In this document: positions 27,964-38,346 of the stretch, piece after piece | How the letters are laid out: every line of letters starts with the position of its first letter | Numbering within the stretch: position 1 is the first letter of the stretch | Assembly (NCBI GenBank): GCA_001798165.1 | Contig: MGRL01000081.1 | Coordinates: forward strand, 1-38,346 | Length of the DNA: 38,346 nt | Origin: Deltaproteobacteria bacterium RIFCSPHIGHO2_02_FULL_43_33 | GTDB lineage: Bacteria > Desulfobacterota > GWC2-55-46 > UBA9637 | Direction: 5' to 3' | Position numbers and translations under genes: made by a program | The notes under the pieces: model-generated | Databases searched by the model: none | Told to the model about the DNA's origin: nothing | Seen by the model: the letters and a program-made list of their open reading frames with translations, nothing else

Positions 27964-27970
27964 AAATAAA

Positions 27971-28034
27971 GTTGCAAGTTGCAAGATGCAAGTTTCAGGT
28001 TTTTTACTTGCAACAGGTAGCTTGCGTCTTGCAA
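27971..28034. repeat. Heptamer dyad between mnmE and yidC
   Basis: GTTGCAA GTTGCAA GATGCAA GTTTCAG ... CTTGCAA CAGGTAG CTTGCGT CTTGCAA. Confidence 0.85.
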
Positions 28035-35881: not shown

Positions 35882-35930
35882 AGGAGCGCTTCTTTGATGC
35901 GAGTTGTATAATATGGCACATATCATGCAC

Positions 35931-35962
35931 AACCAACCAACCAACCAACCAACCAACCAACC
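35931..35962. repeat. Tetranucleotide microsatellite (AACC)8
   Basis: Eight perfect AACC units. Confidence 0.97.
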
Positions 35963-36000
35963 AGTTTCTACCCTGTAAATACTCGCTTTTTATTAAGAGG

Positions 36001-36020
36001 GGAAGGCATCTATGCCTTCC
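36001..36020 (+). other. Perfect hairpin in leader
   Basis: GGAAGGCAT-ct-ATGCCTTCC. Confidence 0.7.
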
Positions 36021-36060
36021 TGATAGCCGCATATTTACCCTGCCTTTTGGCTCGTGCATT

Positions 36061-36114
36061 AAAACCTTGGTTTGTCCCTGTACTACATCGGGACAGGCCA
36101 GGGTTTTTGTTTTA
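36061..36114 (+). terminator. Terminator/attenuator-like hairpin in leader
   Basis: AAAACCtTGGtttGTCCC-tgtactacatc-GGGACaggCCAgGGTTTTT followed by GTTTT. Confidence 0.6.
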
Positions 36115-36229
36115 AAGGTCAGGCGGAGGCAAGGGCTATTTAAAAGGGAAAGGAGGTGAAGAGGTCAAGATTCGCAGTGCAAGAGTTTGTTTCAAAAAAT
36201 CTTTTTAAAAAACAAAGGAGGAAGGTATC

Positions 36230-37351
36230 ATGAAAAACAAGATTCTTATTCTATTGGGAGCATTCATCTTCTGTATGACTCTGGGATTAAAGGACGCAAT
36301 GGCTGCCGCTGCTGCATCAGATGTGAATTGCACAAACCCGTGCATAAGCTCGTATGAAATTCAGGATGGCCAGGTTGCAGCAACTGATATAGCCAACAAT
36401 GCAGTTACAAATGCCAAGATTGCTGACGGCGCTGTAGCCAATACAAAGATTTTAGACGGGGCAGTAACAACACCAAAGATTGCAGATGGCGCTGTTACAG
36501 ATGCAAAAATCACAGGGCAGATATCAACCTCAAAACTTAATGTTGGAACAACCCCAGGCACAGTAGCAGCAGGCGACCATAACCACGATGCTGTGTATCA
36601 GAAAAAATATGCAAATGTTATTGTAGTGGCAAAAAGCGGTGGGGATTTTACATCTATACAGGCAGCTATTGACTCCATCACTTCTACCGATGACAATCCA
36701 TATCTGATCAAGGTAATGCCCGGGACTTATACTGAAAATATAACCATGAAAAGCTATATTCATCTTCAATGGGCGGGGAGGGATGTGGCGACAATACAGT
36801 CTCCATCTACCTCCAATGATGTCATAACTTTAAATAATCTCACAAATGTAACTATATCTGGTTTTACTCTTAAAGGTGGTAGCCATGTAATTTACAACTC
36901 CTACTCCTCTTTTACCCTTGCAGAAAATACTATTTCAGAGAATGACTGGGGAATTAGCAATGTATTTTCCTCGCCTGTGATTACAAAGAACATAATCACA
37001 GGAAGTAGCCAACACGGGATTTACAACTATGCCTCATCACCTGTGATTAGAGACAACACAATTGCGGAAAATGGTGGTTATGGGGTTGTTAATAACTCTT
37101 CCGCACCAATAATTACAGGAAATATAATCACAGGGAGCAATTATTACGGAGTTTTCAACGTCCTTTCTTCCACTCCTGTGATAAGCAATAACAGGATTAC
37201 TGGCAATGGCGGGACGAGTTATGGAGATATTTATGTGGACTCTACCAGCACCCCAAATATCAGTTTTAATGTTTATGACACTATTAATGGCACAACAGGG
37301 GTGGGGCAGTTTAATGTGAAGTCAGATGGTTCGTTGGCTCCAGCGCCATAA
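36230..37351 (+). CDS. Secreted right-handed beta-helix (NosD/PbH1-like) protein with N-terminal stalk repeats
   Basis: Signal peptide; repeats NAKIADGAVANTKILDGAVTTPKIADGAVTDAKI; then FTSIQAAIDSITSTDDNPYLIKVMPGTYTENITMKSYIHL and PVITKNIITGSSQHGIYNYASSPVIRDNTIAENGGYGVVNNSSAPIITGNIITGS repeats. Confidence 0.88.
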   Translation: MKNKILILLGAFIFCMTLGLKDAMAAAAASDVNCTNPCISSYEIQDGQVAATDIANNAVTNAKIADGAVANTKILDGAVTTPKIADGAVTDAKITGQISTSKLNVGTTPGTVAAGDHNHDAVYQKKYANVIVVAKSGGDFTSIQAAIDSITSTDDNPYLIKVMPGTYTENITMKSYIHLQWAGRDVATIQSPSTSNDVITLNNLTNVTISGFTLKGGSHVIYNSYSSFTLAENTISENDWGISNVFSSPVITKNIITGSSQHGIYNYASSPVIRDNTIAENGGYGVVNNSSAPIITGNIITGSNYYGVFNVLSSTPVISNNRITGNGGTSYGDIYVDSTSTPNISFNVYDTINGTTGVGQFNVKSDGSLAPAP

Positions 37352-37371
37352 GAAAAGGATGTAAATTTAAT

Positions 37372-37411
37372 AAAGAGACAGGCAGGGCAAAGAATATATG
37401 TCTGTCTCTTT
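37372..37411 (+). terminator. Rho-independent terminator of the beta-helix gene
   Basis: AAAGAGACAG ... CTGTCTCTTT. Confidence 0.7.
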
Positions 37412-37469
37412 ATCTAAATTGCCACATGCCTAAACAATCAGTGTCTATTACATATTATCTTCTTTAACT

Positions 37470-38333
37470 TTATTGTTTGGAAAGCGATTCAATGATTTTT
37501 TGAACTTCTATATAGTCTGGTTGTATTTTTAATACCTCTTTAAATTCCATTATTGCCTCATTTTTTAATGCCTTTCTTTGATAGGTTAGCCCCAAGTTAA
37601 AATGGGCATTTAAATAGTCGGATTTTAAACTTAATGCTGCTTTTAATTCTTCAATAGCCATATCAAGTAAGCCTTTTTTTGCATAGGCAACCCCAAGGTT
37701 ACTATGGGCCTCCGGATAGTCAGGTTTCTGTCTTAGGGCCTCTCTGTATTCTTGTATTGCTTCATCTGTTTGCCCCTGATTATTGTATGCATTTCCAAGA
37801 TTATTATGTGCTTCAGGATAGTTTAAATTAAGTTCTATGGCTTCTTGTAACGGCATTATAGATTCACCAAAACGTCCTCTATCTTGTAAGAACTTTCCTA
37901 TATTACTATACCCCCTCGCCTTACTTGGGCTCTTCCCCACCACACCCTCCCAAAGTGTTATCTCATCCCTCCAGACAAAGTTTCTTTTATAAGTGATAAT
38001 AGCTAATGGAAGAGCGGTAACAAGTAGCAAGATGCAGGTTGCAAGTAAAAGAGAGACTTTAATATCTAATCTTTCCCTTGCATAGCTAATCCCATAAAGC
38101 ACACCTGAGCTGAATGCAATTACAACTCCTACACTCGGCAGGTATAATCTATGCTCAAATATCACATCCCGTATAGGGATTATAGATGACTCAACAGAAA
38201 GGGTTATGAAGAACCAGAGGATGCCAAAAGAAATGATACGGGATGCGGGATGCGAGTTGCGAGATAAAGAGATAAACTGCAAATGCAAATATGGCTGAAA
38301 GAAAAAGAAACGAAAAAAATGTCTGAGGTTCAA
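37470..38333 (-). CDS. Membrane-TPR protein (TMTC/O-GlcNAc-transferase-like TPR), 5' end frameshifted and beyond the window
   Basis: WFFITLSVESSIIPIRDVIFEHRLYLPSVGVV, VWRDEITLWEGVVGKSPSKARGYSNIGKFL, multiple TPRs (YPEAHNNLGNAYNNQGQTDEAIQEYREAL). Upstream frame reads SHSLFEPQTFFSFLFLSAIFAFAVYLFI to the window edge. Confidence 0.8.
   Translation of the reverse strand: MNLRHFFRFFFFQPYLHLQFISLSRNSHPASRIISFGILWFFITLSVESSIIPIRDVIFEHRLYLPSVGVVIAFSSGVLYGISYARERLDIKVSLLLATCILLLVTALPLAIITYKRNFVWRDEITLWEGVVGKSPSKARGYSNIGKFLQDRGRFGESIMPLQEAIELNLNYPEAHNNLGNAYNNQGQTDEAIQEYREALRQKPDYPEAHSNLGVAYAKKGLLDMAIEELKAALSLKSDYLNAHFNLGLTYQRKALKNEAIMEFKEVLKIQPDYIEVQKIIESLSKQ
38017..38044. repeat. Four-unit heptamer array inside TPR gene (in frame)
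   Basis: GTAACAA GTAGCAA GATGCAG GTTGCAA. Confidence 0.75.
38235..38262. repeat. Four-unit heptamer array at the frameshift in the TPR gene
   Basis: GATACGG GATGCGG GATGCGA GTTGCGA. Confidence 0.8.
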
Positions 38334-38346
38334 ATAATGAATGAGA

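Follow-up and report, generated by a model that had tools for sequence, protein, structure and literature searches.

A degenerate heptamer array at a frame break in a membrane-TPR gene, and its relation to dispersed period-7 arrays of the same genome

The array and the gene at the contig end

The window, i.e., the whole stretch of DNA analyzed here, is the complete contig C81 (38,346 bp) of a draft genome (G000) of 2.19 Mb in 126 contigs. At its right edge lies, on the minus strand, a gene for a protein with a multi-pass membrane domain followed by TPRs, which is interrupted 84 nt from the contig end by four degenerate heptamers (Table 1). The array, first noticed in a sequence-only reading of the window, is indeed present. 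When the minus strand is read, the frame at the edge gives SHSLFEPQTFFSFLFLSAIFAFAVYLFI before the array. The conserved ISFGILWFFITLSVESSIIPI segment belongs to the +1 frame, and ISFGILWFFITLSVESSIIPIRDVIFEHRLYLPSVG follows the array in a frame other than that of the edge. The I codon (ATC) of the 5′ fragment SHSLFEPQTFFSFLFLSAIFAFAVYLF continues into the array. A dicodon coding model trained on the G000 genome was used to score the frames on either side. Over the upstream 84 nt, frame 0 is best (+2.5 versus −10 and −24), and over the downstream 120 nt, frame 1 is best (+7.4 versus −54 and −72), which bears out the frame switch proposed at the array from the letters alone.

Table 1. Features of the window discussed in the text
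Feature	Position	Strand	Remarks
Second heptamer array of the window, AAGTTGC-type	27969..28002	+	just 5′ of the likely mnmE start
Convergent right-handed beta-helix protein, partner of the membrane-TPR gene	36230..37351	+	
Membrane-TPR gene, 3′ part (+1 frame, ISFGILWFF...)	37470..38234	-	last membrane helices and TPR repeats
TGA stop of the upstream frame	38191..38193	-	14 codons past the array; read from sequence
Degenerate heptamer array, 28 bp, four units (GATACGG-GATGCGG-GATGCGA-GTTGCGA)	38235..38262	+	period-7 score 13-14.5
Membrane-TPR gene, 5′ fragment (frame 0, SHSLFEPQTFFSFLFLSAIFAFAVYLF)	38264..38346	-	runs off the contig end

A period-7 array of equal score did not occur in any of 100 second-order Markov copies of the window; the array is therefore not due to chance. 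Its longest exact period-7 run is 16 nt (~2.3 units), and adjacent units are never identical. No boundary of a transposon or other element was seen at the array site, and a search for structured RNA gave no Rfam match in 36000-38346. Elsewhere in the same gene, a degenerate heptamer-like stretch (ACTTGCA ACCTGCA TCTTGCT ACTTGTT, 38016-38046) codes for part of a membrane helix.

The membrane-TPR gene belongs to a multi-copy family. Two intact paralogs are found in G000, on contigs C34 (628 aa) and C110 (an open frame of 725 codons), and two copies in G002, a genome of the same family, are also intact across the site. G001, the only other genome of the genus, gave TPR-only matches and no copy of the gene. 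A convergent beta-helix gene follows the membrane-TPR gene on C34, C110, and C81 and on contig C80 of G002 (matching record MGQA01000080.1, GWF2_42_12), and its presence at all four loci indicates that the gene pair was duplicated as a unit. Contig C97 stops within the 5′ end of another such gene (C97 17157-17418, L079 3157-3417). Being the only unmatched close 5′ end seen, it is probably where the C81 gene begins. A further copy, on C59 (L078 2204-4218), is cut off after ~147 codons beside a DUF772 transposase, itself split over two ORFs; broken copies of this family thus occur in G000.

The membrane part has no Pfam, NCBIfam, or PDB sequence match, named families matching the TPRs only, and a named GT family for this part was discarded for want of such support. 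We take the combination of membrane part and TPRs to resemble TMTC/GT-C type membrane glycosyltransferases with TPRs, which have the same layout of a multi-pass membrane part followed by TPRs. However, no Pfam or PDB sequence match places the membrane half in this group, and the hits listed by Foldseek are TPR proteins.

A loop replaced by heptamers

Alignment of the protein to homologs, a check suggested by the sequence-only reading, showed C34 and C110 to be continuous across the site, which is occupied by an in-frame inter-helix loop in these two paralogs (RSRRTDNAHGLL in C34, RSRRTAKSPSRLAGEKTKSPSPHRGEGRGEGKCYGLL in C110) and in all readable homologs. In most close homologs this loop has 12 residues (RSRxTxNxHGLL). 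In an AlphaFold model of C34 (37 homologs; pLDDT 88, pTM 0.88), the array site corresponds to residues 363-374, where the chain turns from helix 341-367 into helix 370-391. The flanking matches are separated by 37 nt in C34 (1 nt plus the 36-nt loop) versus 29 nt in the window (38235-38263), a net length change of −8 nt relative to C34. Among the 77 loops read, that of the window is the only one whose upstream helix lies in a different frame.

Loop length varies widely among the homologs, and ~15 of them carry in-frame heptamer arrays with differing units in the same loop. Long heptamer arrays of different units lie in this membrane-protein loop in other genomes (L105, L106, L118, L135, L138, and L162), which makes the loop a recurrent site. 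The C110 copy and that on C111 of G002 have longer inserts here, in frame and made of a repeat type other than heptamers (LAGE/RGEG). In-frame non-heptamer repeats (SPSRLAGEKTKSPSPHRGEGRGEG) are found in the loop at L010 898-1330 and, on the reverse strand, at L082 ~1039-1450.

The native 12-residue loop is absent from the window, which rules out a clean insertion into an intact gene. Of the fixed disabling insertion considered in the sequence-only reading, the disabling change fits our data, but the insertion does not, since the array replaces the loop. Its arithmetic was also correct: 28 equals 1 mod 3, and one unit fewer or two more would give an in-frame length. Deleting the array would likewise restore the frame, but because the array took the place of the native loop (29 versus 37 nt), such a deletion would fuse the two helices without a loop and would not recreate the ancestral protein. 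Among 56 G000 arrays, the window array is the best match to the DNA of a RITHHA loop (G030, L112), with an alignment score of 40 against a shuffle maximum of 39, a weak hint at its origin. Judging from this match, a heptamer-type loop, e.g., RSRITHHAHGLL, may have occupied the site in the parent copy.

The upstream part of the C81 gene is 86% identical to C34 and C110, with differences mostly at third positions, and the downstream part (118 codons) shows DNA identities of 81% to C34 and 79% to C110, with dN/dS values of ~0.16 and ~0.12, respectively. Changes unique to C81 comprise 10 synonymous and 5 non-synonymous substitutions (2 and 0 in the upstream part, 8 and 5 in the downstream part), which does not exceed what the intact copies show. 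Both halves are thus under purifying selection, the gene having been constrained until recently. As regards the usual marks of a pseudogene, the frame is disrupted relative to intact homologs, but selection is not relaxed; a very recent break would leave no such signal. Constraint on both halves fits a recent break, an indel error near the contig end, or a switch.

Period-7 mini-arrays across the genome

An unbiased 274-kb sample of G000, with crude ORF calls, contained 35 period-7 mini-arrays (census loci L236-L255), compared with 0-1 arrays for control periods 5 and 9-12, 4-5 for periods 6, 8, and 13, and none in shuffles. Scaled to the whole genome, this corresponds to ~280 arrays. They measure ~20-57 nt (median ~32 nt) and comprise more than 40 different units, in a set that includes loci fetched because they held arrays. 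With its 28 bp, period of 7, degenerate units, and score of 13, the window array fits this class. In the census, 25 of the 35 arrays (~70%) fall within ORFs, compared with a coding fraction of 0.84; genes are thus only mildly avoided. Similar arrays were found in G003 (13 in 94 kb, L270-L275) and in G002 (5 in 66 kb), and none in 160 kb of G018, a genome from the same class that consists of one contig. Patterns of the type (YCGYAWY)3, the unit type of the window array, occur in all eight family genomes and never in the reversed control.

Host genes, recognized by inspection or PDB match, include those for MurF (NAECGMRNAE), a BioF/KBL-like enzyme (HISHLTPHTS), PriA (two arrays), and a family-9 glycosyltransferase. 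In MurF and the BioF-like enzyme, the array segments are just 2-3 residues longer than in the PDB homologs, indicating that the repeats largely replace an existing loop. On contig C7, 20 kb (L240 1-20000) hold 12 heptamer arrays, all in ORFs or at their edges; the hosts include prepilin-like genes, and one 453-codon ORF contains two arrays.

Frame behavior was assessed on 56 G000 arrays, part of which had been fetched because they held arrays. Nineteen lie inside one gene and in frame, and one more was called in frame but with a stop, at a gene end. Five differ in frame: four are located between two genes (one at a fabD-fabG-like boundary), and the fifth is the window array, the only mid-gene frame break among the 56. 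In the unbiased part, 11 are in frame and 2 differ, both at gene boundaries. Under random frames, 19 of 20 arrays in frame would have a chance probability of ~1e-8. The other intragenic arrays tested hence keep the frame, and the window array departs from this behavior.

Heptameric repeats are reported to be over-represented in several bacteria, chiefly in intergenic regions and with one dominant unit (PMC4692102, PMC4679880). Examples are the GGGAATC and GGGGATT heptamers of Xanthomonas and Nostoc (PMC4692102), 89-93% intergenic in Xanthomonas, and the TAACTGA repeats of Beggiatoaceae (PMC4679880). The G000 arrays are like these in their 7-bp period, their dispersal over the genome, and the small number of units in each, but with more than 40 units and ~70% of arrays in ORFs they show neither one dominant unit nor a mostly intergenic location. 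They are thus unlike the described intergenic heptamers, having many units and lying inside genes and in frame. They are also reminiscent of the Rickettsia palindromic elements, in-frame repeat DNA inside genes (PMC10969869), in that both are frame-keeping repeats in genes of unrelated function. However, the Rickettsia elements are palindromic, ~150 bp long, and encode a conserved peptide, whereas the G000 arrays are ~30-nt heptamer runs without shared sequence. A limited literature search turned up no account of heptamer arrays that have many different units and lie in frame within genes.

We tentatively suggest, as a reading that is possible rather than probable, that a hitherto unrecognized mutational process lays down ~30-nt period-7 arrays with locally varying units, genome-wide, in certain uncultured groundwater lineages, whose MAGs are labelled Deltaproteobacteria, Nitrospirae, and Geobacteraceae. 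Such a process would overwrite surface loops and termini of ordinary proteins in frame and would occasionally kill a gene, as here. The local frameshift is minor, and the dispersed heptamer phenomenon is the more interesting lead. A 7-bp period, expected to wreck reading frames, is common inside ordinary genes of this lineage, passing selection only with the right net length. These arrays would constitute a natural experiment in which short tandem repeats make new protein loops, and they bear on the unexplained heptamer excess in bacterial genomes. In addition, frameshift callers will flag such sites, and loops of predicted proteins such as ITNYELRITN, NAECGMRNAE, and HISHLTPHTS are translated repeat DNA.

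Fate of the C81 copy

In the explanation that we favor, the array is one of the ~280 dispersed degenerate period-7 mini-arrays of G000. Its site in the multi-copy membrane-TPR protein is a turn that joins two transmembrane helices and tolerates change. In the C81 copy, heptamer sequence stands in place of the native 12-residue loop, and the net difference of −8 nt breaks the frame; translation would end 14 codons later, so that the TPR domain and the final membrane helices would be lost. The frame break and this loss make a non-functional allele the most likely outcome. We consider it probable that the C81 copy is a non-functional allele of a redundant family, due either to a real mutation of recent date or to an indel error near the contig end, rather than a reversible switch. 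Both the loss of function and the recency of the break are what we infer from sequence, and to a real recent break, taken separately, we would give an even chance or marginally better. Two points temper the reading of C81 as a dead allele: a switchable or mis-assembled gene would show purifying selection too, and the 5′ part of the gene lies off the contig.

An assembly or consensus indel, which the sequence-only reading had listed as an option, fits the data in several respects, and we regard it as a serious possibility with clearly less than an even chance. The true sequence would then be in frame, the error lying in the array near the contig end, where reads from paralogs were perhaps mixed. 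Isolated BLAST-validated frameshifts are expected to be mostly sequencing errors or indels (PMC3711429). Moreover, the contig ends 84 nt from the array, family paralogs share ~80-86% DNA identity, contigs C97 and C110 also break at or beside such genes, and the purifying selection in both halves is what an error would leave. However, the match to the paralogs continues undisturbed right up to the array on either side. Furthermore, common short reads are longer than the 28-nt array, so a collapse is not expected.

The ON/OFF phase-variable switch raised in the sequence-only reading, in which slippage by one heptamer would toggle the gene, is poorly supported: we judge it improbable and the least likely of recent break, assembly error, and switch. 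The window array has its period of 7 in common with phase-variable heptamer loci such as Haemophilus influenzae hmw1A and the Neisseria CATTTCT repeats (PMC8262952, PMC5953494). Its frame would indeed toggle by unit gain or loss, minus one unit or plus two restoring it, and the conservation of both coding halves and the wide loop-length variation among homologs would also suit a switch. However, such loci consist of many identical units at promoters or surface genes, as in hmw1A, where 13-24 copies of ATCTTTC are found and unit number changes expression (PMC8262952), whereas the window array has four degenerate units. Its ~2.3 perfect units fall short of the cut-off for phase-variable 6-9 nt units, at least 3 uninterrupted units (PMC5953494). 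In addition, hundreds of similar arrays occur in all kinds of genes, including housekeeping genes, and in spacers, which is not the distribution of contingency loci, and no other intragenic array in the sample breaks the frame of its gene.

Finally, one protein made by ribosomal +1 frameshifting, or two pieces made by re-initiation, would suit a downstream frame that is open and overlaps the upstream one, but it is very improbable given that inspection revealed neither a recognized +1 signal nor, directly past the array, an evident start codon preceded by a ribosome-binding site, that no Rfam element was found, that no other homolog needs such a mechanism, and that two pieces of a multi-pass membrane protein severed at this turn are unlikely to function. 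Elsewhere in the window, a perfect (CAAC)8.5 tetranucleotide repeat (35930-35963), inside a short minus-strand ORF reading VGWLVGWLVGWLV, is a better candidate for slippage than the heptamer array.
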